IMG/VR virus record: IMGVR_UViG_3300006641_000223
Coordinates: 1-21,220 of that record
DNA length: 21,220 bases
Source: a virus
Reading direction: 5' to 3' (one strand)
In this document: positions 9,467-21,220 of the stretch, in pieces
How positions within the stretch are numbered: position 1 is the stretch's first letter
How the letters are laid out: each line of letters starts with the position of its first letter
Notes under the pieces: generated by a model
What the model was told of the DNA's origin: nothing
The model's database searches: none
Seen by the model: only the letters and a program-made list of their open reading frames with translations
Translations under genes and position numbers: made by a program

Positions 9467-9543
9467 CCAAACCCCCTCCTACGTCCCCTGGCGGGGACGA
9501 CCGACTCCTTGAGGGAGTCTCCGTCCCCTGCCGTCGCCGTCTA
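9467..9543 (-). promoter_or_regulatory. Leader with two tandem hairpins before the adaptor gene
   Basis: This 77-nt non-coding gap separates the head and tail modules. It holds a perfect 7-bp stem (9482-9488 with 9493-9499, loop TGGC) and a 6-bp stem (9503-9508 with 9514-9519, loop of 5). It also has a third copy of the CGTCCCC arm at 9522-9528 that could pair with the same right arm. The 15-mer CCTGCCGTCGCCGTC (9527-9541) is identical to one in the leader of the scaffold gene. The upstream gene ends in two consecutive TAG stops. There is no U-tract on the minus strand, so a classical terminator is unlikely; a processing or regulatory structure is more plausible. Confidence 0.5.
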
Positions 9544-11049: not shown

Positions 11050-12027
11050 TTAGACCGTCGCGCCCGTGATCTTGCCGAGACGCCGACGGCTGTTCGTCAC
11101 CAAGTTGCCGTAGCACAGAATCTGTGCGTACCGTGCGTCCTGGTTCGTGGGCCGCTGGAACGAAGTGTTCGTAAACCACTTCTGCGAGTGGCGTGCGATC
11201 CACAGGTGCTTCGAGTTCAGGAAGTAGACAGGGCCGCTGTCGTAGGTGTAACCCGACAGGAACGACGAGTTGTCCACCGCCACATCCCAAGTGACAGGAG
11301 CGCCACGGTACAGCAGGTTCACGAAACCAGCATCCGCGGTCGCAGGGTCCGAGTAACGCAGTTGCGGCTGCAACAGCGACTCGTACTTCTCCCACAGATC
11401 CTGCGAAGTGAGGATGAAGTCAGGAGTGTCCGTGCCACCCTGAGCGACATCGTTCCACGCCGCCGACATCGCAGCAATCGTCAACGGGCCTGAACTCAGG
11501 TCCGTCTCCACCGACGCCCAAGTGGCGTGGTTACTTACGTCCAGGCCACCAAGCGCAATGCCGCTGTCAACGATGTTCGCAAGACCATTCCACGCGTTCG
11601 TGGTCGTGCCGTTCCCGAGGAACTGCTTGACCAGCAGGTCCGACAGCGATTCCTCGGCCTGCATCACCTTCGCTTCGAGAAGGTCGATGATCGCTTCCTT
11701 GCCGTTGTTCTGCGCTTCCTCAAGGCCAGCGATAGCAACGGACACGGCAGCCTGCCGCCACAGGTACTCGGCGGCAGTCATCCCATCCTGCGGGGCAGTC
11801 GAAAGCGTGTCATACATGCTGTATGTACCCGCCGTGCTGTTCGACCCCTCAATGATCGGGATGACGATACGGGCACCGCCCGTGTAAGTCTTGATACGGT
11901 TCTTCGACTTCAGCCAGTTCAGCATCGGTCGGGCCTGGAAGACGTTATCTTCCAGCGTGTTACGGTAGTTGTAAAGAGTTGTCGCAAGTAGCGAGTCGTA
12001 GTTCAGCGAACTGGTATCAGCAGCCAT
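11050..12027 (-). CDS. Major capsid protein (HK97-fold type)
   Basis: This 325-aa protein has the features of a phage capsid protein without a cleaved scaffold domain. The N-terminal arm is LNYDSLLATTLYNYRNTLEDNVFQARPMLNWLKSKNRIKTYTGGARIVIPI (about 8-58), followed by a spine helix (TAAEYLWRQAAVSVAIAGLEEAQNNGKEAIIDLLEAKVMQAEESLSDLLVKQFLGNG, about 84-141). A TPDFILTSQDLWEKYESLLQPQLRY segment and a C-terminal P-domain-like beta/helix region with YFLNSKHLWIARHS and FQRPTNQDARYAQILCYGNLV complete it. It starts behind an excellent ribosome site (GGAAGGGG, six bases from the ATG), consistent with high expression. It directly follows the scaffold gene and is followed by a strong hairpin and two decoration-like genes. 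Confidence 0.9.
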   Translation of the reverse strand: MAADTSSLNYDSLLATTLYNYRNTLEDNVFQARPMLNWLKSKNRIKTYTGGARIVIPIIEGSNSTAGTYSMYDTLSTAPQDGMTAAEYLWRQAAVSVAIAGLEEAQNNGKEAIIDLLEAKVMQAEESLSDLLVKQFLGNGTTTNAWNGLANIVDSGIALGGLDVSNHATWASVETDLSSGPLTIAAMSAAWNDVAQGGTDTPDFILTSQDLWEKYESLLQPQLRYSDPATADAGFVNLLYRGAPVTWDVAVDNSSFLSGYTYDSGPVYFLNSKHLWIARHSQKWFTNTSFQRPTNQDARYAQILCYGNLVTNSRRRLGKITGATV

Positions 12028-12061
12028 CGCCGTCCCCTTCCGAGAATAAACATTTAGACGA

Positions 12062-12847
12062 TTACAAGGTCATTCCGTGCGCCTGCTCTGCGAGAGCAAG
12101 CGCATCGCGGACGCTTGTAGGGGCAGTCACCCCGCCAGGCTGCACGGTCCCGCCAGCGACCCCGCGGCCTCCCGCAACGGGCGGCGCTGACGCCTTCCGC
12201 TGCTGGGCCTGCTGTTGGGCCTGTTGCCGTTGGGCCTGAGCCAACACCCTGTCCACCACGAAAGCCTTCGCCGCTTCCGTCACCGACGGGATGCCACGCT
12301 CCACCGCATATTGCAGCACTTGCAGATCGTCAAACTGGCCGAACTGCTGGTGCATCGCTTGCAGTTCAAGTTCAACTTTCTGTTCAAACGTCCGCATTTC
12401 CTGCTGCTGCATGAACTCCTCAACACGGCTGCGGAACGCTTCGTCAGGGTCTTGCCAGTCGGCTTCGGTGTCCTGAACTTGAGGTTCGGGCCGCATCATC
12501 TGCGGCTCCTGCGCCCCCAAATATGCGACCTGCAACGCCTGGATGGCCCGTTCAGGGTCTTGTTCCAACGCGTTGCGGATCTCCTCCGCATATGTCAACG
12601 AGTCACGTTGCTCTGCCAACGCCTGCGTCTTCTGCGTGTAGTCGCTTTGACGCATGTAGCCGTTCAGCGCTTCGTCCAACGAAACCTGAACGTCTTCCCC
12701 GCCTACTTTCACGGTGAAATATTGGCTAGCAGCGGAAGGGTCTGCTGTTTCGGTACCGATGTCCTGACTTGCGGCCAGATCGGTCTCGCCCTGAAACCCT
12801 TCGTCCGAAACGGCCGTGTCGGCCGTTTCGCCCATATATTCGTCCAC
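12062..12847 (-). CDS. Capsid scaffolding protein
   Basis: This 261-aa protein is acidic, Gln-rich and helical. It carries the typical scaffold pattern YFTVKVGGEDVQVSLDEALNGYMRQSDYTQKTQALAEQ (about 43-80), then DSLTYAEEIRNALEQDPERAIQAL. Long Gln-rich helices follow (VEEFMQQQEMRTFEQKVELELQAMHQQFGQF), with an AQAQRQQAQQQAQQRK stretch and a C-terminal helix (SVRDALALAEQA) of the kind that binds coat protein. I chose GTG 12847 because AGAAGGA sits four bases upstream; ATG 12835 is an alternative. The frame is open to a TTG at 12946, but those codons translate the leader repeat and look non-coding. It lies 34 nt upstream of the capsid gene. Confidence 0.88.
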   Translation of the reverse strand: MDEYMGETADTAVSDEGFQGETDLAASQDIGTETADPSAASQYFTVKVGGEDVQVSLDEALNGYMRQSDYTQKTQALAEQRDSLTYAEEIRNALEQDPERAIQALQVAYLGAQEPQMMRPEPQVQDTEADWQDPDEAFRSRVEEFMQQQEMRTFEQKVELELQAMHQQFGQFDDLQVLQYAVERGIPSVTEAAKAFVVDRVLAQAQRQQAQQQAQQRKASAPPVAGGRGVAGGTVQPGGVTAPTSVRDALALAEQAHGMTL

Positions 12848-12878
12848 AGAGTCCTTCTCGGGTTGCTCTCTTGGGTGA

Positions 12879-12899
12879 AGGTCACCATCGCGGTGACCT
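12879..12899 (-). other. Perfect 8-bp hairpin in the scaffold leader
   Basis: AGGTCACC (12879-12886) and GGTGACCT (12892-12899) form a perfect stem around a 5-nt loop, between the recurrent dyad element and the scaffold ribosome site. No U-tract follows. It may be part of a 5' leader RNA structure controlling scaffold or capsid expression, or a protein operator. Confidence 0.45.
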
Positions 12900-12917
12900 G
12901 ACGGCGGCGATAAACAC

Positions 12918-12944
12918 CCCCTACTAGATAAGACAAACTGTCCC
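12918..12944 (-). promoter_or_regulatory. Recurrent 27-nt dyad element, copy C (scaffold leader)
   Basis: On the minus strand this reads GGGACAGTTTGTC then TTATCTAGTAGGGG. Its first 13 bases are identical to copy A in the TerS leader. It lies in the non-coding gap 30 nt after the stop of the 691-aa gene and about 70 nt before the scaffold start. Directly 5' of it is the 15-mer also found before the adaptor gene (12947-12961). A late promoter or operator role is inferred only from its placement. Confidence 0.5.
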
Positions 12945-12974
12945 AACCTGCCGTCGCCGTCGGGGCTGCGGCGG

Positions 12975-15050
12975 TCAGAACCGCGAAACCAACTGGCCGT
13001 ACAGCGCCAAAGCGACAGGATCGAACTTCGGCCGAGCCGACACCGACACCGCCTCCACCCTCACAACGCCCGCACACTCGCCAACCACCGACACCACAAA
13101 CGTCCCCGCCGCAGACGGCACCCACGAATACGACCACGAATCGGTCGCACCGATCTGCCCCATCGCCGCAGACGCCACCTCGTCCGTTTCCGTTCCCGTA
13201 GACGGATCAATCGAATACACCCGCACCGTAGGAGTCGCATCAAACGGCTGGGCGACACCCAACGCGCTCAACGCCTGCGTCACGATCGGGGCAGCCAATC
13301 CGACCGCAACCTGGTCGGCCACCTGCACCACCAGAACGCAAGTGTTAGCCAAATCGCCAACAAGCGGAACGCCGAACGACAGACCCGCAGCAAACCCCGC
13401 AGGGCCGACAGTCACCTCACCAGGCGTGACCGTCACACTACCGAACGTCGGACCGTCAGCCAGACCCGACGGCTCCACCGTCTGCGGGAAAGCAGACGCC
13501 ACATCGACAGTCGGCGTCCCAAACACCTGACCGTCAACCAAACTAGACGGACTCGCAGTCACCTCACCAGGGGTGACCGTTACAGTACCGAACGCCTGCC
13601 CATCGGCAAGACCCGTGGGGCTAACGGTCACCGTCCCAGGTGTGACCGTCGCGGTACCAAACGCCTGGCCGTCAACCAAACTTGAAGGAGAGATCGTCTG
13701 ACCGCCAGCAGCGAGATCCACGGTCGGCGTCCCAAACGCCTGACCGTCCGCAAGACCCGACGGAGCAATCGAATGATGCGTAACAACCAGCAGCGGATCA
13801 GAATCAGTACCGACCGTCCCAACCCCATACACCGTCGCAAGCGACTGTGCAGGATACGACGAATCCGTCGTCGGGGACAACACCGCCAACACCGACGTTG
13901 TACCCGTCTTGTTGATCGTCGCCTTCAAAGCAGTATCAGAGTTCAGGCCAGACGAACCGTTCAGATCGTTATATGCCGCCGTCCCCTCAACCATATTCGC
14001 CTTGACCATCGACCCCAACGTCGAACCAGAAATCGACGTACGGGCCTGCATCACCTGCGAATACGTTGTAGTCCCACCAAACGCCGACGTACCGTCGGCC
14101 ACCTTCCCCTCAACCACCAGCAACGAATCGCCAGTACCAATCGCATCCTTATCCTGCAAGCAGAACCTCAGCGACGCACCCGAAATCGTGTCATAATCAG
14201 GAAGCGAGGCCGTATCGAACAACAAACCCGCCCGATACTCCGACGTAACCAAACCGTAATAGCCCACATAGAACGTCGAATCGTCATTCGTCAAACTGGT
14301 GATGCCCTCACCACCAAACTCGTACGTGATCGCCGACCCCGTAACCGAACCTGTCCACGACCAAGCATGCGCCGACGGGGTATCACCATCCGTCAACGCG
14401 GTAGAAGTCTCATCTTCTTTATCAAGATAGAAAGCCTGACGGCCCGACGAGAACACCTGCGACGACGCATCACCACCCGACATCGTGATCGCAGACCCAC
14501 CCGAGTTCAACGCACACACCGCAACCCGCAAACGCGGATGCCGAGTCTTATCTCTGGTCAACAACGTATACGAACGGGACGTAGCCCCACTCGTCCAAGT
14601 ATCAATCCCAGAAGACTGCTGATACTGGGCATACGGGCCAGAGAACTCCCACATGTACACTTTGCCCGTCACGTTCGACGCAGCCGTAAACGGCTGCGAC
14701 GTAGTGCCAGTCGTGTTACTGTTCTCGCCCTCACGACGCCAATACATCGCGATACCACGGCCCGTCGCCCCAGCATCAACGATCTCCGTCCACTTATAAG
14801 TGCCCGTATCAATCGAACAACGAACATTCGATTCGATAGCAATCGCACAAACCAGCAAGTTCCCTGCGGTCGGAGCCGACGAGAACGCAACCGCACAGTT
14901 CGTAGACGACGTAACCGTCGCAGACGCAGTTTGGACAGTACCCCAATCGGTCAACGCACGATCAATCGTATCGTTGATATCCGAATGGTACGTTGTGAGG
15001 CCCTCGGACCGTTGGCCCGTCGCAACAGGATAAATCGAAGAAGTGGTCAT
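12975..15050 (-). CDS. Multidomain beta protein with six tandem repeats and Ig-like end; candidate head fibre
   Basis: This 691-aa protein starts at ATG 15050, overlapping the upstream stop by 4 nt; an open extension to 15266 only translates the neighbour's antisense frame-shadow. Residues about 35-245 form a beta-sandwich-like region (SAPTAGNLLVCAIAIE..., VYMWEFSGPYAQYQQ...). Residues about 250-425 look like a DNRLRE-type domain (YVGYYGLVTSEYRAGLLFDTASLP, GASLRFCLQD, DPLLVVTHH). Residues 428-564 hold six repeats of the pattern (I/V)xPSGLADGQAFGTPTV, and residues about 575-670 look Ig-like (TPTVRVYSIDPSTGTETDEV, WSYSWVPSAAGTFVVSVVGEC). It is encoded upstream of scaffold and capsid, far from the tail fibre cluster, so I infer a capsid-surface fibre or adhesin. 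A neck or whisker protein is the main alternative. Confidence 0.85.
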   Translation of the reverse strand: MTTSSIYPVATGQRSEGLTTYHSDINDTIDRALTDWGTVQTASATVTSSTNCAVAFSSAPTAGNLLVCAIAIESNVRCSIDTGTYKWTEIVDAGATGRGIAMYWRREGENSNTTGTTSQPFTAASNVTGKVYMWEFSGPYAQYQQSSGIDTWTSGATSRSYTLLTRDKTRHPRLRVAVCALNSGGSAITMSGGDASSQVFSSGRQAFYLDKEDETSTALTDGDTPSAHAWSWTGSVTGSAITYEFGGEGITSLTNDDSTFYVGYYGLVTSEYRAGLLFDTASLPDYDTISGASLRFCLQDKDAIGTGDSLLVVEGKVADGTSAFGGTTTYSQVMQARTSISGSTLGSMVKANMVEGTAAYNDLNGSSGLNSDTALKATINKTGTTSVLAVLSPTTDSSYPAQSLATVYGVGTVGTDSDPLLVVTHHSIAPSGLADGQAFGTPTVDLAAGGQTISPSSLVDGQAFGTATVTPGTVTVSPTGLADGQAFGTVTVTPGEVTASPSSLVDGQVFGTPTVDVASAFPQTVEPSGLADGPTFGSVTVTPGEVTVGPAGFAAGLSFGVPLVGDLANTCVLVVQVADQVAVGLAAPIVTQALSALGVAQPFDATPTVRVYSIDPSTGTETDEVASAAMGQIGATDSWSYSWVPSAAGTFVVSVVGECAGVVRVEAVSVSARPKFDPVALALYGQLVSRF
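13359..13769 (-). repeat. Six tandem repeats of about 70-78 bp encoding a 17-aa beta motif plus linkers
   Basis: The repeat units start at residues 428, 453, 476, 499, 525 and 548 of the 691-aa protein. The consensus motif is PSGLADGQAFGTPTV, with linkers of 6-9 residues such as TPGEVT. Units 1-4 are close in DNA sequence as well, while units 5 and 6 have drifted (PTFGSVTV, LSFGVPLV). Unit-number variation by recombination would be expected between relatives. Confidence 0.8.
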
Positions 15051-15484
15051 GCTGTCAACGCCACAAACAAGGCCGTCAACGCGGCCTGCGGATCGTAACG
15101 GAACCGACGTAACCCGACCACCGTTTCCATTGCGTCCAACGCCCGAGCAGGCAACAAAGTCGTTTCGACCAACAGACGGCCATCGCCCTGTTCGACCGTA
15201 CGGACAGCCCACTCGCCCGCAGGATCCGACGCCAACACGGGCGGTCGGGACACAATCACGGGCCAAGAAATGTTGCCGCCCTCACCATCCAGCCGCAACG
15301 CATCGCCACCATCGCCATCAGCAGCCCGCGACACGGCCAAAACCGTCACGCCCTCAACAGGCGTGAACGGGCAAACAATCTCGGCAAGTGCAGCATCTAC
15401 ATGCTTCGCACACACCTCATGATGTAACGCCCGTTCAGATGGATGTTCGCGATCAAAGACAGCGAGGATGTCGGGAACTGCCAT
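15047..15484 (-). CDS. Hypothetical head-module protein (145 aa)
   Basis: This protein starts MAVPDILAVFDREHPSERALHHEVCAKHVDAALAEIVCPFTPVEGVTVLAVSRA, a helix followed by beta strands. A beta-rich middle follows (GEGGNISWPVIVSRPPVLASDPAGEWAVRTVEQGDGRLLVETTLLPARALD), then a C-terminal helical segment (DPQAALTALFVALTA). No family is recognised. ATG 15484 lies six bases after the upstream stop without an obvious ribosome site, so coupling is likely. Its stop overlaps the 691-aa gene by 4 nt, and tight coupling with that gene suggests they act together. Confidence 0.78.
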   Translation of the reverse strand: MAVPDILAVFDREHPSERALHHEVCAKHVDAALAEIVCPFTPVEGVTVLAVSRAADGDGGDALRLDGEGGNISWPVIVSRPPVLASDPAGEWAVRTVEQGDGRLLVETTLLPARALDAMETVVGLRRFRYDPQAALTALFVALTA

Positions 15485-15490
15485 CGCACA

Positions 15491-15907
15491 TCAGAGCGCA
15501 AAGATCTTGTTCGAACCCGCATCCCACGTTACGGAAATGTTCCCGCCGTTCGGAGTGATCGGCGTGAACCCGTCAATCCATGCGATCAACGGACTGGTCG
15601 CAGGGTTACCCGTGTCCTTGTAGATCACAAGCGCACCGACCGTCTTTGCCCCATCGACCGCCACCGAAGTGAACGTAGAATCGCCAGCGTCGAACGTGCC
15701 GCCCGTCACCGTCTTCGACCCCAACGTCTGATCGGTAGACGCCCCATACGACGTAACCGACGACTTATATTGAGTGGCGCTCGTCACCGAACCGTTATCG
15801 GTCGCAACATTACAAATAGCGACCTTGATTGTGTCAGTATCGAAATCAATCGACGGGTTCTGCGAAAGCAGCGACTCTTTGCACTTATCGAACAGATATG
15901 AGGCCAT
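15491..15907 (-). CDS. Phage structural-type hypothetical protein (138 aa)
   Basis: This protein has the arrangement MASYLFDKCKESLLSQNPSIDFDTDTIKVAICN (about 1-33), then LGSKTVTGGTFDAGDSTFTSVAVDGAKTVGALVIYKDTGNPATSPLIAWID (about 61-111), ending in FTPITPNGGNISVTWDAGSNKIFAL. This pattern ('I...lv......vt.G.fdA.d.tft.v.g....alviYkdtG....s.LIa.id......vtpnGg.i.v.wd.g.n.if.l') is widespread in tailed phages as an unnamed virion-associated protein. It is beta-rich with no membrane segment. The start is three bases after the previous stop. Family membership is fairly sure; the molecular role is unknown. Confidence 0.85.
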   Translation of the reverse strand: MASYLFDKCKESLLSQNPSIDFDTDTIKVAICNVATDNGSVTSATQYKSSVTSYGASTDQTLGSKTVTGGTFDAGDSTFTSVAVDGAKTVGALVIYKDTGNPATSPLIAWIDGFTPITPNGGNISVTWDAGSNKIFAL

Positions 15908-15910
15908 CTC

Positions 15911-16192
15911 TCAACTGTAACTTTCTGTTGTGCGGTCATTCCAAATGGCGGTGCGGTCACCCGACCATACCTGTTGGGTCGGGTTGCCCGACCCGTCCAA
16001 TATCACTTTCTTGATCGTCCACACCGCATCGCCAGCGGCAGCGCCCTTCTCGGCTTCCCCCACATAGATCGCGGAACTGCCGATGTCGTACCGCAACTGC
16101 ACGTTCGTTGCGGCTGCGACATATTCGCCTGCTTCCAACGGGCGTACGGGCAGAACGCGGACCAAATCCCGTTCTGCATAACGGCCGCTCAC
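15911..16192 (-). CDS. Phage hypothetical protein with IYVGEA...VWTIKK...DRTTESYS pattern
   Basis: This 93-aa protein ends with a stretch (IGSSAIYVGEAEKGAAAGDAVWTIKK, VILDGSGNPTQQVWSGD, RTAIWNDRTTESYS) seen in many small phage proteins encoded next to portal or tail genes ('yiG.A..G.......W.Ikri.......i..a.g......iwd.R....Y'). I place the start at GTG 16192, which overlaps the upstream stop by 4 nt (GTGA); GTG 16201 in the same frame is the other option. The function is unknown; a minor virion protein is likely. Confidence 0.82.
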   Translation of the reverse strand: MSGRYAERDLVRVLPVRPLEAGEYVAAATNVQLRYDIGSSAIYVGEAEKGAAAGDAVWTIKKVILDGSGNPTQQVWSGDRTAIWNDRTTESYS

Positions 16193-16392
16193 GACACCCA
16201 CGGGCGAGGCTGCCCGCCAGGCTCAGGAACATCGCCCTCCGTCTCGGGAGACGAAACAGCAGAGCGTTTCTTCTTCTGGGCGACAACCTCCTGCACATTC
16301 ACGTTGATTGTCGGCGCTTGCTGCTGTGCCATCCGTTCCATCACCGCCAACAGGCGGTCCAGACGACGTTCCCACTCACTCGCGTCCATCAT
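16189..16392 (-). CDS. Small coiled-coil hypothetical protein (67 aa)
   Basis: This gene starts at ATG 16392, overlapping the portal stop by 4 nt (GGATGATGG). A second ATG follows immediately, and the GGAGG ribosome site is unusually close to both. Residues about 3-24 (DASEWERRLDRLLAVMERMAQQQ) form an amphipathic helix, then a short beta patch (APTINVNVQEVV), a basic cluster (AQKKKRSA) and a Pro/Glu/Gly-rich tail. No family is recognised. It could be a portal-associated assembly factor, judged only from its position. Confidence 0.75.
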   Translation of the reverse strand: MMDASEWERRLDRLLAVMERMAQQQAPTINVNVQEVVAQKKKRSAVSSPETEGDVPEPGGQPRPWVS

Positions 16393-18398
16393 CCTCCGTT
16401 CGGCAGTTCCAAACCCAACTGGTTCTGCAACTGCAACAGAATCTCAGGGGGAATGTTCACGCCAGCGTTCGGTGTCGCTGCCGTTTCCTGCGGCATGTCT
16501 GTCGGCCCCTGCCCCGCAGGAAGTCCCTGCGGGCCTGCCGACGGCGGGAAACCACCACCTGCCTGCGCGCCGCCCATCATCGACGGATCGCCACCCATCA
16601 TCGACGGGTCCATCATCGGTGAAGGCATCGTAATGAACTGTTCGGGGTTCTTCACCCCGAACCCCTCCCGCAGCACATACGTCACCAACGCCTGCGGGTT
16701 CACAGCCACCCCCACATACGGGCTGAGCACATTCGCCAACTGCAACGCCTGCTGGCGACGGTACGCCTCATCGCGAGGCTGTGTCGAACCTGCCTCCACC
16801 TCGAAGTCGAACTCGCCCTGAATGCGTTCGATGTCGAACTCAATCCATGACGCCGCCCCATCCATCCCCACAATGCGAGCAACATGATCGCCCGTCAAAT
16901 ACTGTTGGGCCAGTTCCACAACCCTCCTGGCAACGTCCGACATGAACGTTTCGATCTTCGCCAACTTGTCGGCCGCACGAGCGTTCGCAGCATCCTGGAT
17001 CATTGCCGCTTCCGTAGCAGTCCGTCGAACTTCCGACAGTCCACCACGCTGATATTCGGACACGCCAGAAACCAGATCGACATCCTGTTCGATCTGCTGC
17101 GAATGTTGATACATCTGCGGGTCCAACGACAGTTGCTGCAACGGCACAACCACGTTATGCAGATCGACATCTCCGTCAACATAAATGATCCTGTTGTCCT
17201 TATCGGTCAACAGTGCATTCTGTGCTGACGGGTCCAACGCGTCACGGCGAGCGATATAGGCCCGCTGCCACCGTTTACGGTGATTGACCATATCTGACCG
17301 TGTGGCGTTCAGTTCGTGCTGCAACGGTTCGATCACCTCAAGGTCACCGATGTTGTAGAACTGGTCAGGTACCTCATAGTTGCCGAGGAACACGTACGGG
17401 CTGCCATACGGGTACGGGAAATCGGTCGGCTCCAACAGGAAGTCGTCACCCGACCCTGCGAACACACAGTAGAACTCGGCCCGCAAATCGTAGAACTCCC
17501 ACAGCACAACCCGTTTCACATCGTCGTCGTACTTGTGGGCCTCATCATGCGAATCGATACTGTCCCGCCATCGCACATTCGTAGACGCGTCGGCTTGCAG
17601 ACGGTCACGGGCCGCTTTACGGTACCTGCGGTCCTTCTTCACATCTTCCAACGGGAGGACCATCCGTTGGGCAACCCATTTCAGATCCTCGAAACAAGTC
17701 GATTCGGGATCTACGAACAGGTCGAACGGACTGACCCGTTCCACGAACGGGCAGTCCACCTTCGGTTCCTCGGCCCGTTCATCGACCTGCGACCGTAACA
17801 TTTCGTCCGACGGGCCGTCCAACATCGGATCTTGTTCCAACTGCAAATCGGCCTGATCGCGTAACTGTTGAAACTCGGCGAACTGTTCGTCCGCGCTCTT
17901 CTCGCGATATTCGGCCTCATATTTCCAGCCGACCTTCACCCAGCCGTTCCCGAAGATCAGCGAGTCTTTCACCGCCCGTTTCAGTTCGACCCGCCAGTTA
18001 TAGTGCCGCCACCAATAGTTTACGGCCGCTTCGGCAGCCTCGGCAGCAGGTTCCATTTCGGGCTGACGGGCCGTGACCGTAACTCTCGGATGGTTCACCG
18101 AAACTGACGGAACAATCGTGTTCACCGTAGCGAACGCGACGTTCACAGCGATCTGCGCTTCCGACGAGAACTGGTCGAAATGGCGGTTGCGGTACAGGTC
18201 GGAAAGGCGACGCCAAGTGTCCTCGTACTGTTCGTCTTTCCGCCACCGTTGCGCCGTATCTAACCGTTGGCGGTACTTGGCAAGCAGATCTTTCTTCGTG
18301 CCGCCCGCACGGCGGTACGGGGCAGGGCCGTCCTGTTCGTTGTCGTTCCCTTTCCAATATTGTTCGGGGAGCGGAACTTGCGGCTGCTGTCCGTCCAT
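16389..18398 (-). CDS. Portal protein
   Basis: This 669-aa protein (from ATG 18398) has the general layout of portal proteins of short-tailed phages. An N-terminal region contains RWRKDEQYEDTWRRLSDLYRNRH, NVAFATVNTIVPSVSVNHPRVTVTAR and AVKDSLIFGNGWVKVGW, followed by VERVSPFDLFVDPES and VLWEFYDL. A long stem/crown region then has DQFYNIGDLEVIEPLQHELNATRSDMVNHRKRWQRAY, LVSGVSEYQRGGLSEVRRTATEA and helical DKLAKIETFMSDVARRVVELAQQYL. The last 90 residues are a low-complexity Met/Gly/Pro tail including two DPSMMGG repeats. TGATG overlap favours ATG 18398; GTG 18407, with GAGGG upstream, is an equally legible alternative. It forms the dodecameric ring that TerL docks on. Confidence 0.9.
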   Translation of the reverse strand: MDGQQPQVPLPEQYWKGNDNEQDGPAPYRRAGGTKKDLLAKYRQRLDTAQRWRKDEQYEDTWRRLSDLYRNRHFDQFSSEAQIAVNVAFATVNTIVPSVSVNHPRVTVTARQPEMEPAAEAAEAAVNYWWRHYNWRVELKRAVKDSLIFGNGWVKVGWKYEAEYREKSADEQFAEFQQLRDQADLQLEQDPMLDGPSDEMLRSQVDERAEEPKVDCPFVERVSPFDLFVDPESTCFEDLKWVAQRMVLPLEDVKKDRRYRKAARDRLQADASTNVRWRDSIDSHDEAHKYDDDVKRVVLWEFYDLRAEFYCVFAGSGDDFLLEPTDFPYPYGSPYVFLGNYEVPDQFYNIGDLEVIEPLQHELNATRSDMVNHRKRWQRAYIARRDALDPSAQNALLTDKDNRIIYVDGDVDLHNVVVPLQQLSLDPQMYQHSQQIEQDVDLVSGVSEYQRGGLSEVRRTATEAAMIQDAANARAADKLAKIETFMSDVARRVVELAQQYLTGDHVARIVGMDGAASWIEFDIERIQGEFDFEVEAGSTQPRDEAYRRQQALQLANVLSPYVGVAVNPQALVTYVLREGFGVKNPEQFITMPSPMMDPSMMGGDPSMMGGAQAGGGFPPSAGPQGLPAGQGPTDMPQETAATPNAGVNIPPEILLQLQNQLGLELPNGG

Positions 18399-18631
18399 CA
18401 CACCCACCTGCGTCCCTCATATTGCGGTTCGGGGTTCCCGTACCGTTTGGCGTTGGCGAACATTTCGTCTACCCGTTCCTTTACCGTTTCGCCATGCCAA
18501 TCGTCACGGCCCCCTGCTGCCACAAAGTTCAGGCAGACAGATCTGACTTTCTCGCCGTAAGCCTGCTCGGCGTCCGTCAACCCAGGGCAGGCGTCCAACG
18601 ACCAATGTTGGGAATGTTCACACTCTGCCAC
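18398..18631 (-). CDS. Small Cys/His protein between TerL and portal (77 aa)
   Basis: I place the start at GTG 18631 because AAGGAG lies eight bases upstream; GTG 18637 would be only two bases away. An in-frame ATG at 18847 would run through the TerL gene and the non-coding leader. The protein begins MAECEHSQHWSLDACPGLTDAEQAYGEKVRSVCLNF (C4, H6, H9, C15, C31), then GRDDWHGETVKERVDEMFANAKRYGNPEP. The C/H cluster could bind a metal, although the spacing is not a known finger. Its stop overlaps the portal start by one base, so it is translated with portal. Function is unknown. Confidence 0.75.
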   Translation of the reverse strand: MAECEHSQHWSLDACPGLTDAEQAYGEKVRSVCLNFVAAGGRDDWHGETVKERVDEMFANAKRYGNPEPQYEGRRWV

Positions 18632-18722
18632 AGCCACGGCTCCTTGCCGACCGCACGAGAGGGACTCGGCGTCTTCTGGCGTCGCCGACCGTCTAGGGAG
18701 ACGACGCCTTCTACCTAATAGG
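18632..18722 (-). promoter_or_regulatory. Leader between TerL and the portal block, related to the TerS leader
   Basis: This 91-nt non-coding gap shares several blocks, in the same order, with the leader upstream of TerS: the 3' part of the dyad element, GTCGTCTxCCTAGA, a TCCCT run flanked by complementary bases, and CGTGCGGTCGGC just before the ribosome site. In the minus-strand RNA, GCCGA and TCGGC can close an outer stem with CGAG/CTCG inside. Two such related leaders before two packaging genes suggest a shared control element. Confidence 0.5.
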
Positions 18723-18734
18723 TCAAACTGTCCC
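18708..18734 (-). promoter_or_regulatory. Recurrent 27-nt dyad element, copy B (contains the TerL stop)
   Basis: The minus-strand sequence is GGGACAGTTTGACC then TATTAGGTAGAAG; it differs from copy A at two of 27 positions. The first 12 bases encode the last codons of TerL (G-T-V-stop), so the TGA of TerL sits inside the element. The TGTC-to-TGAC difference from copy A is exactly the base that creates the stop. Confidence 0.5.
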
Positions 18735-20309
18735 AGGGATGCGTGGGCCGTTCGGCCCCCAACGGACGTTGTGGGAGCCGATTGTCGGCACGGCCGTTTC
18801 GTGACTATCGACCTGATCCCACCAGGCCAACTGGCCCCACTGCACATTCTGCACTTTGTAGTCGTGCTGGTGGGCGTACGCCATCATCTGCACGGCGATA
18901 GCCAACGAGATCGTACGGTCATCGAAAGGTGACCCGTGCAGGCGGGCGCTTTCGTCGCGGATAAACGTCCGTAACTCCCCAACAGTCTCCCGATCGCGGA
19001 CCGTGATCGAATCGTCACGCAACGCCGCATATAGGTCGTCCAACATCATCGGCCGAGTCTTACGAGTCGTAGACCAACCAATCTTCCGAGTCTCCCGACG
19101 CGACCGCTCATCCACAATCCGCGAATAGAAGATATTCGGATACTTCGCACCCTTCAACGCCACACAAGTCGTCAACCCATGATTATTGTTCTCCACCCCA
19201 ACCAACGCCCGATTATAGAACCATCCCAAATCGGCCAACACATCGCCGAACTCGTCAGGAGGAACATGCCCATGCCAATGAGCAACAACCAAACCAGACC
19301 GCAAACGGATCACATGAGCCGACGAAAAGTCACCATGCTCCAACCCCTCCGCAACATCAGCACCAATCACATACTGGTCGCCATCCTGCGGCAACTCCCA
19401 CATCTCCAACGGGCCACCCGACCGTTCAACAAACGTCCGAAACTCACGAGCCACAACCTCACCCACACGGCCATCCTCCAACACAAACTCGGCCAGACGG
19501 GCAGTATCAAAGAACGGATTGCCACCCTGAATGAACGCCTCATCCTCCGTCCGCGGATACTCCTGATGTAACTGCCACTCAGGCAACGACCGACGTTTCA
19601 CCTCATACCAAGCAGCATCCCGCTCCGCACGCGCATCCCACGCCTCAAAGATCGGCACAAACTGATTCGTGCCAGTCCTCGCCCCAACCCACAACGAATG
19701 GAAAAAGTTCCCCCAACCATTCGCAGTAGACAAACCGATCACACGACCACCAACATCAGCGATCGGCTCAATCGACGCCCACGCATCAACAGGATTCTCC
19801 AAGAACGCCCACTCGTCCACAATCACCAAATAGCAAGAACGGCCACGAGCAGGATCAGACTTCGACGGCAACGACTCAATCGCAGAACCGTTCGACAACG
19901 GAAACTCCTGCTGATTGTCCCGCAACAACTTCGGGCCACGAGCACGCAACCACTCAGGAAGCCGTTTATGCCCATACCTGACCTTATCCAGAATCGTCTT
20001 CGCTTCCCGCTCACCCTTCGACAAGAAGATCACCAAACGATCCTCATGAAAGAACGCCAACCAGAACGAATACGCAGCAACCAACGTCGTCCAGCCGATC
20101 TGACGGGCCTTCAACGTCACCACATACCGTTCTGCCTGAAACACCCGCAACGCATCACGTTGCGCATCGAACAGTTCAAACGGAATCTGCCCACGTTCAG
20201 GATGTTGAATCCGCCAATAGTTCTCGAAGAAGAACACAGGATCTTGAGCGCACTTACGCCACGAAGCCTCCTGAAACAGTTCGGCCTTCGAGAACGGAAC
20301 GTCCGTCAT
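18723..20309 (-). CDS. terL: Terminase large subunit (ATPase/nuclease)
   Basis: This 528-aa packaging motor protein has an N-terminal ATPase with an adenine/Walker A region (YVVTLKARQIGWTT, K67 to T75, variant of GK[TS]). Walker B is YLVIVDEWAF (D165, E166) and the coupling motif is IGLSTANGW (about 191-199). The C-terminal RNase H-like nuclease contains YVIGADVAEG (D318), LVGVENNNHG (E373) and PFDDRTISLAIAV (D463/D464), the expected acidic triad. The length is normal for the family. The start overlaps the 89-aa gene by 4 nt (ATGA) with no strong ribosome site, so translation is probably coupled. Its stop lies inside dyad element copy B. It cuts concatemeric DNA and pumps it through the portal. 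Confidence 0.93.
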   Translation of the reverse strand: MTDVPFSKAELFQEASWRKCAQDPVFFFENYWRIQHPERGQIPFELFDAQRDALRVFQAERYVVTLKARQIGWTTLVAAYSFWLAFFHEDRLVIFLSKGEREAKTILDKVRYGHKRLPEWLRARGPKLLRDNQQEFPLSNGSAIESLPSKSDPARGRSCYLVIVDEWAFLENPVDAWASIEPIADVGGRVIGLSTANGWGNFFHSLWVGARTGTNQFVPIFEAWDARAERDAAWYEVKRRSLPEWQLHQEYPRTEDEAFIQGGNPFFDTARLAEFVLEDGRVGEVVAREFRTFVERSGGPLEMWELPQDGDQYVIGADVAEGLEHGDFSSAHVIRLRSGLVVAHWHGHVPPDEFGDVLADLGWFYNRALVGVENNNHGLTTCVALKGAKYPNIFYSRIVDERSRRETRKIGWSTTRKTRPMMLDDLYAALRDDSITVRDRETVGELRTFIRDESARLHGSPFDDRTISLAIAVQMMAYAHQHDYKVQNVQWGQLAWWDQVDSHETAVPTIGSHNVRWGPNGPRIPGTV

Positions 20310-20575
20310 GCCAACGGGACAGGCGGCAAATCAGCCCACAACTGCCAGAACTGCCGCTCTCGCGTCCACGGAGACGTAGCAGTCAACGTCACAGACACAG
20401 ACGCCGCAGCATCCGAGACAGCCGCCGCACGAGCCACACCCCACGGCGTACCCGACAGCCCCTGATCCAACCAGAACTGACGTTCCTGCTCATGACGGAA
20501 CACCCATTCAGGATAGTTCACCGACCAGGCAGACAGTGCGTCCGCCTGATCGTCGCAAACAAACCTAACTGCCAT
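20306..20575 (-). CDS. Small hypothetical protein between TerS and TerL (89 aa)
   Basis: I choose ATG 20575, which overlaps the end of TerS by 11 nt, with a GGGATGGGGGA purine stretch upstream; the frame is open to 20665 but that part only overlays TerS. The protein reads MAVRFVCDDQADALSAWSVNYPEWVF, then an HEQERQFWLDQGL segment, an Ala/Ser/Thr-rich middle, and a second ERQFWQLWADLP near the C-terminus. The duplicated ERQFW helix is the only internal structure visible. Being sandwiched and overlapped on both sides by terminase genes suggests a packaging role; no family is recognised. Confidence 0.75.
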   Translation of the reverse strand: MAVRFVCDDQADALSAWSVNYPEWVFRHEQERQFWLDQGLSGTPWGVARAAAVSDAAASVSVTLTATSPWTRERQFWQLWADLPPVPLA

Positions 20576-21020
20576 CAGCGTCCCCCATCCCAGCAAGAAG
20601 CCCCAACTTACCCAACTCGGCCCGCAACTCGTCATCCGACAAATCAGCAATCCGACGATCCTCAATCACCACACGGTTCGGCTTCAACCTATCCGCATGC
20701 TGCAAGAACAAGCCAGCAGCCTTCATATCGCCCTCCGTCGCAGACCGAAACACCGCGTTCATCACCTCCTGAATCCGCACAGGAGACAGATTCAACTCAT
20801 TACAACGCTTATCTACAGCCTTCCGAACACGAGAGTCCTTATCCCACTTGCCCAAACGAGCCACCGCCACACCGATCGACTTGGCAAACGCGACCCGAGT
20901 CTTCAAATCGGCAGGCCGCTCCCAAGTAGGCATCGTCACCCACTCCACATACCGTTCCACATGCGGAGGCAACGACCCGTCAGCAGGCCAACCGTTCCAC
21001 GACTCTCTCCCATAACCCAC
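20565..21020 (-). CDS. terS: Terminase small subunit (DNA-recognition)
   Basis: The 151-aa product from GTG 21020 contains SLPPHVERYVEWVTMPTWERPADLKTRVAFAKSIGVAVARLGKWDKDSRVRKAVDKRCNELNLSPVRIQEVMNAVF. This is a helix-turn-helix pattern of the kind seen in small terminases (AKSIGVAVARLGKW as the HTH core), followed by a helical oligomerisation region (SATEGDMKAAGLFLQHADRL). The start is inferred: GTG 21020 has GGAG and GGGGG just upstream, while codons before it translate the tandem repeats of the leader. ATG 20930 would lose part of the conserved-looking segment. It binds the packaging site and passes DNA to TerL. Confidence 0.82.
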   Translation of the reverse strand: MGYGRESWNGWPADGSLPPHVERYVEWVTMPTWERPADLKTRVAFAKSIGVAVARLGKWDKDSRVRKAVDKRCNELNLSPVRIQEVMNAVFRSATEGDMKAAGLFLQHADRLKPNRVVIEDRRIADLSDDELRAELGKLGLLAGMGDADGS

Positions 21021-21053
21021 AACAAACCCCCAACTCCAACATCGGCTCCTGCC

Positions 21054-21104
21054 GTCGCCGACCGCACTCCGTCGCCGACCGCACTCCGTCGCCGACCGCA
21101 CAAG
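21054..21104. repeat. Three 17-bp tandem direct repeats in the TerS leader
   Basis: The unit GTCGCCGACCGCACTCC occurs at 21054-21070 and 21071-21087 without mismatch, and its first 14 bases recur at 21088-21101. The units abut exactly with no spacers, so this is not a CRISPR array. The inner CCGCACTCC is the reverse complement of GGAGTGCGG in the adjacent 18-bp repeats, so the two arrays can pair. Confidence 0.85.
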
Positions 21105-21117
21105 GGAGTGCGGCGGC
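21091..21117 (-). other. Bulged 10-bp hairpin between the two repeat arrays
   Basis: GCCG-A-CCGCAC (21091-21101) pairs with GTGCGG-CGGC (21108-21117) around the loop AAGGGA, with A21095 bulged. In minus-strand RNA the loop is UCCCUU, complementary to Shine-Dalgarno-like AAGGGA. The same UCCCU loop recurs in the leader at 18632-18722. Confidence 0.6.
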
Positions 21118-21141
21118 TCCTAGGAGTGCGGCGGCTTCTAG
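21106..21141. repeat. Two 18-bp tandem direct repeats in the TerS leader
   Basis: GAGTGCGGCGGCTCCTAG (21106-21123) is followed immediately by the same sequence with one change, C to T (21124-21141). Each unit ends in CTAG. Together with the adjoining 17-bp array in inverted sense it forms a compound inverted/direct repeat of about 90 bp. Confidence 0.85.
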
Positions 21142-21152
21142 GAAGACGACTG

Positions 21153-21179
21153 CTCCTACCTAATAGGACAAACTGTCCC
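21153..21179 (-). promoter_or_regulatory. Recurrent 27-nt dyad element, copy A (TerS leader)
   Basis: The minus-strand sequence is GGGACAGTTTGTCC then TATTAGGTAGGAG. It contains two back-to-back dyads, GGACA-GTT-TGTCC and CCTA-T-TAGG, an arrangement typical of a protein operator. It shares 25 of 27 bases with copy B and the first 13 with copy C. Confidence 0.55.
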
Positions 21180-21220
21180 GCGACCAGGGCCGAAAGGGAG
21201 CAGCCCGACTTGCCCTGGGA

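Follow-up and report, generated by a model that had tools for sequence, protein, structure and literature searches.

In the R17/MS2 coat operator and the T4 gene 43 operator a hairpin carries the ribosome site, and packaging sites are often located before terS. In Cluster K mycobacteriophages, a repeated element accompanied by inverted repeats lies immediately upstream of the AGGAGCC ribosome site and start of several genes, and its function is unknown (PMC3203893). The start-associated element (SAS) has a 13-bp consensus, GGGATAGGAGCCC, found within two deviations before start codons, and its extended form (ESAS) consists of imperfect 17-bp inverted repeats with a 4–13 bp spacer upstream of the SAS (PMC3203893). 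The 17-bp inverted repeats of Cluster O mycobacteriophages have no link to translation starts, unlike the repeats described here (PMC4351075).

Here we analyze two repeat-bearing leaders in an IMG/VR fragment of 21,220 bases (the window), whose late genes lie on the minus strand. They are genuine duplicates of one leader, built on an old promoter-like framework, and most likely form a structured 5′ UTR module.

Late genes of the window and its relatives

The minus-strand late genes include a probable terS, terL, a small Cys/His-rich gene, an SU10-like portal, a scaffold, and the major head protein. Three of them bear on the leaders:

20565..21020, minus strand: probable terS, its GTG start (21020) placed from the SWNxWP N-terminus of relatives
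18723..20309, minus strand: terL (terminase large subunit), its last codons inside copy 2 of the promoter-like element
18398..18637, minus strand: small conserved gene after terL, ~78 aa, Cys/His-rich, with CEHSQHW

The terS candidate had no PHROGs match, and its product matches the ORF preceding terL in two relatives, L005 and L051. No relative of the small post-terL gene was found among genome contigs in a host/prophage search. Near-identity searches of isolated phages gave no match to the window, and the closest TerL among annotated phages, at 45% identity, is that of MW202803, a complete genome annotated as podovirus. The version of the small post-terL gene in this phage (L270, MW202803.1, 38887–39204) is annotated as a DNA-directed RNA polymerase, and relatives’ versions resemble zinc ribbons. 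A 763-aa ORF between portal and scaffold contains diverged tandem repeats with an ADGQAFGT-like motif (window 13372–13764).

Two homologous leaders

Each leader has three layers, namely an old promoter-like element, a body built of repeats, and a Shine–Dalgarno sequence in a small hairpin loop:

21156..21179, minus strand: promoter-like element copy 1 (GGGACAGTTTGTCCTATTAGGTAG), upstream of terS, with syntenic copies in L005 and L051
21105..21158, minus strand: three 18-nt tandem units, consensus TAGGAGCCGCCGCACTCC, self-similar at offset 18 (0/2000 shuffles)
21052..21102, minus strand: 17-nt tandem array of three units, GTGCGGTCGGCGACGGA, which complements the 18-nt array, the two forming a predicted long hairpin
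21043..21054, minus strand: Shine–Dalgarno AGGAG of the terS leader, in a small CGGC-AGGA-GCCG hairpin, followed by ATG (21042)
18711..18734, minus strand: promoter-like element copy 2, overlapping the terL stop codon
18661..18713, minus strand: body of the post-terL leader, homologous to the terS body and composed of diverged, unit-like stretches
18646..18656, minus strand: GTGCGGTCGGC, a single copy in the post-terL leader, common to the 17-nt units of the terS leader
18638..18649, minus strand: Shine–Dalgarno AAGGAG of the post-terL leader, predicted to be unpaired within a small CGGC-AAGGA-GCC(G) hairpin

The first-pass annotation proposed that the two leaders are homologous, and a colinear local alignment over 89–90 nt at ~80% identity, which beats shuffled controls, bears this out. 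The whole-leader alignment scored 82 against a shuffle maximum of 28; without the shared 26-nt element it scored 44 against a maximum of 33 in dinucleotide shuffles (0/2000), and beyond 44 nt it scored 30 against a shuffle mean of 14.9, a value reached by 3 of 2000 shuffles. Homology continues to the Shine–Dalgarno sequence (AGGAGCC). Some details of that annotation need correction. Among the shared features it listed in order, GTCGTCT(T/C)CCTAGA is present in both leaders (21150–21137 and 18705–18692, minus strand), but GTGCGGTCGGC occurs three times rather than once in the terS leader (21101, 21084, and 21067). The span that it gave, 18632–21110, also falls short of the terS leader, which begins at 21179.

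Internal structure differs between the two bodies. The first 18-nt unit of the terS body overlaps the end of the element, and the post-terL body retains one significant self-similarity, at a 35-nt offset (shuffle P 0.0005). A third copy of the element, before the scaffold gene, has nothing in common with the leaders beyond the element itself; only the terS and post-terL leaders share the body.

Besides the window, only two near-identical variants carry these leaders (L003 and L004, 99.7–99.9% identical to it). Scans of viral contigs with the element, TATTAGGTAG, and the 17-nt unit gave chance-like matches outside the known relatives and no cassette. The leaders hold 3 of 17 and 3 of 6 of the strain differences (binomial P 0.02 and 0.002, post hoc; the L004 count leaves out a run of contig-end mismatches as an assembly artefact), and two of these differences are common to both variants. 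The difference at 21137 turns terS unit 2 into an exact copy of unit 3, and that at 18710 brings the post-terL leader closer to the terS leader, hinting at homogenization. Both variant contigs end at base 21194, 26 nt before the window end, suggesting that the assembly breaks close to the terS leader.

L005, L016, and L051, the three nearest relatives, lack the post-terL body, and their element stands directly before the start codon. The body was therefore copied or added there in the window’s lineage. The relatives’ terS leaders differ in sequence from the window’s, which leaves terS a putative donor and the post-terL site a putative recipient. In L005 the terS leader (9477–9535) is filled by a long inverted repeat with 13-nt arms (92%), unrelated in sequence to the window’s arrays; no inverted repeat was found in the terS leader of L051.

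A promoter-like element at late-gene starts

The promoter-like element, GGGACAGTTTGNCCTATTAGGTAG, occurs at three syntenic places, at terS, at the terL end, and at the scaffold gene, where the third copy was located:

12921..12944, minus strand: promoter-like element copy 3, with 3 mismatches, upstream of the scaffold gene and without a leader body

Relatives whose TerL is 66–68% identical have element sites at the same places; L005 and L051 carry GGGACAGTT or GGGACATT at the three positions syntenic to the window, and in the window, L016, and L051 a copy runs into the terL stop. Because L005 and L051 share the three sites, the element itself was not newly transposed. The first-pass idea that a whole leader was duplicated or transposed is supported for the body, which is missing after terL in the nearest relatives and aligns with the terS leader, but not for the element. 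Its dyad, GGACA-GTT-TGTCC, is intact in copy 1 only; neither copies 2 and 3 nor the relatives L005 and L051 retain it, and we reject it as a structural element.

More distant relatives have GTAACGA or CGAACGA at the post-terL start and other gene starts. In 37 cases GTAACGA stands 22–23 nt ahead of the ATG that opens an ORF of at least 60 codons, and neighboring distances have few such cases; further peaks occur at 17 nt, seemingly coding sequence, and at 59 nt. All forms of this first block (box A) together give 86 sites at 20–25 nt before starts versus 8 on the reverse strand, counts from which near-duplicate contigs were only partly removed. In the best examples of the GGGACAG and GTAACGA forms, a TATTAG-like block (box B) follows 14 nt after the first base; it is weak or poorly kept in L005 and L051.

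A conserved sequence at a fixed distance before late genes is what a late promoter would provide, and on sequence grounds the element may well be one. The 22-nt distance to the ATG speaks against a promoter, because with transcription starting at that codon it would misfit the usual sigma70 spacing, and so does the poorly kept box B of L005 and L051. Sigma70 region 4 proteins are encoded by 14 of 20 relatives, the contigs of L005 and L051 among them, where the proteins are small (~120–150 aa) and score at or below the Pfam cut-off. The corresponding helix-turn-helix genes lie at 28989–29132 (plus strand) in contig G001 and at 14498–14632 (minus strand) in contig G002, which hold L005 and L051. 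In one scanned relative, L174, a Sigma70 region 4-like domain is fused to a DUF1599-like domain. The window, a contig fragment, lacks a sigma-like gene. A search for a single-subunit phage RNA polymerase as reader (PF00940) gave no match anywhere, controls included.

Leader folds and the ribosome site

The terS leader has a predicted fold stronger than shuffles (z −4.1, 0/200), with two near-isoenergetic registers at −77.7 and −75.6 kcal/mol. For the post-terL leader the predicted fold does not stand out from shuffles (z −0.70), and the variant differences rearrange it, with SNPs 18707 and 18710 altering the stem without compensation.

In both leaders AGGA stands between CGGC and GCCG, placing the ribosome site in a hairpin loop. 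The post-terL AAGGA is predicted unpaired in all three strain variants (p 0.96–1.0), and the terS site is predicted partly open, being only partly paired. The first-pass annotation saw in UCCCU a loop that could mask translation starts. UCCCU is instead a boundary sequence of the repeat units, not consistently a loop, and in the predicted folds it does not pair with the post-terL ribosome site. Together with the open site, the ordinary post-terL fold, and its rearrangement by SNPs, this makes a masking switch unlikely on present evidence. Rfam covariance models gave no match in window 12000–21220 up to E = 1. A 20-codon ORF (window 21042–20980, minus strand) begins at the ATG that follows AGGAGCCG and overlaps the terS start out of frame; it is a possible leader peptide.

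A conserved hairpin before the scaffold gene

The third leader, before the scaffold gene, contains a different structure:

12845..12872, minus strand: conserved RNA hairpin AGAGAG-CAACC-loop-GGA-CUCU

Hairpins of the form GAG-CAACC-loop-GGA-CUC (GAGCAACC-loop-GGACUC) lie directly before the scaffold gene in the window and in 48 sequences from relatives (including L005, L051, L092, and L119) whose major head proteins are 36–74% identical; the second L136 entry among them is probably a chance match. Across 31 distinct sequences, 89.9% of cells pair versus 84.2% in shuffles (0/500), and 16 double-sided changes are seen versus 7.2 in shuffles (0/500), covariation counts that are inflated by related sequences. 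In each of the genomes searched, the covariance model found a single copy, invariably ahead of the scaffold gene. It matched MW202803 weakly and gave no match in the stretch of Mx8 searched or in the terS and post-terL leaders; the loci tested had no Rfam match.

A parallel case in MW202803

The terS and post-terL leaders of MW202803 share a perfect hairpin, CCGTTTCTGACGGAAACGG-NN-CATA-NN-TATGA (score 46, shuffle maximum 29), whose full arrangement occurs only at those two places among the sites scanned in its 42-kb genome. Its sequence is unrelated to the window’s body, making it an independent parallel. Such a shared leader is the exception, since only MW202803 exceeded its shuffles in a screen of 44 loci, a screen that can miss cases because it took the wrong terS ORF for the window and may have misplaced other terS starts.

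Origin and role of the duplicated leader

We give an even chance to the reading that recombination copied a single late-gene 5′ leader module to give the two leaders, and that in this module the element is a late promoter and the repeats a passive 5′ hairpin. The module would run from the promoter-like element through a repeat-built, structured 5′ UTR to a ribosome site displayed in a small loop. The element shared by both sites is an obvious point for recombination, which may have carried the body from terS to the position after terL. The element would then serve as a late promoter, with the small sigma-region-4-like protein encoded by relatives perhaps helping in its recognition, and the transcribed repeats would stabilize or insulate the late mRNA as a passive 5′ hairpin while leaving the ribosome site open.

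Other roles for the repeats have to be weighed against this. Three 17-bp and three 18-bp direct repeats immediately before terS could be a DNA array to which a phage protein binds, for example the small terminase, if this is a packaging site, or a protein of replication or partition. We consider this unlikely, as a homologous body also follows terL, directly upstream of another ribosome site, whereas a packaging site is expected once; the two arrays are mutually complementary, which suits RNA; and in place of the arrays L005 has its inverted repeat and L051 none that we found. If the leaders worked as RNA, UCCCU or CUCCU could base-pair to the ribosome site and keep translation shut off until the fold was opened by a signal or protein. 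The anti-Shine–Dalgarno-like CUCC segments of the terS leader and its strong, two-register fold would suit such a switch, but the open, unpaired post-terL site in all variants, its ordinary fold, the uncompensated stem changes, and the missing Rfam match render it quite improbable.

A start-associated element of the Cluster K type, with extended inverted repeats and acting at translation initiation, would account for the layout, which is the same: at more than one gene, inverted repeats immediately precede the start codon and its AGGAGCC ribosome site (PMC3203893). The leader sites lack the 13-bp SAS that defines the type, even with up to three mismatches, a threshold at which the window has five matches, a chance-level count, and the body is common to only two leaders; we doubt that the leaders belong to this type. 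Two copies of one sequence might also reflect a small MITE-like mobile element inserted twice. Terminal inverted repeats and target duplications did not show at a first look; both copies share one starting point behind the old common element and end at a ribosome site, and the viral contigs scanned gave no copy other than those of the two strain variants, all of which makes such an insertion highly improbable.

Returning to the copied leader module, we tentatively propose, at somewhat less than an even chance, that a podovirus-like uncultured family has an undescribed late system. It would combine the bipartite element (GTAACGA/GGGACAG) 22–23 nt before starts, a sigma-region-4-like reader, the scaffold hairpin (GAGCAACC-loop-GGACUC), and, in some members, lineage-specific terS and post-terL leaders. 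The duplicated leader would show how phages in a group with few isolated members change head-gene expression, by transferring copies of entire leaders between genes while the promoter skeleton stays fixed. The start-linked, family-wide element and the covarying scaffold hairpin open late gene control in uncultured phages to direct testing.

Comparison with known systems

A bipartite element heading late genes, together with a sigma-region-4-like protein in relatives, resembles phage late promoters that use phage-coded factors. To our knowledge, a spacing of 22–23 nt to start codons fits no known promoter class. The window’s leaders are like the R17/MS2 and T4 gene 43 operators in presenting a Shine–Dalgarno sequence in a hairpin loop before a gene, and unlike them in that no candidate binding protein is seen, the site is predicted open, and the terS and post-terL hairpins are not conserved in relatives. 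The window resembles the Cluster O mycobacteriophages in having short repeats, there 17-bp inverted repeats scattered in an actinophage genome (PMC4351075). Set beside the ESAS arrangement, the terS leader has 9-nt exact inverted arms within its 17/18-nt arrays, and the post-terL leader has one 10-nt pair, 21 nt apart. Compared with the Cluster K SAS/ESAS, the window’s promoter-like element lies ~70–110 nt further upstream, and its repeats are tandem arrays.
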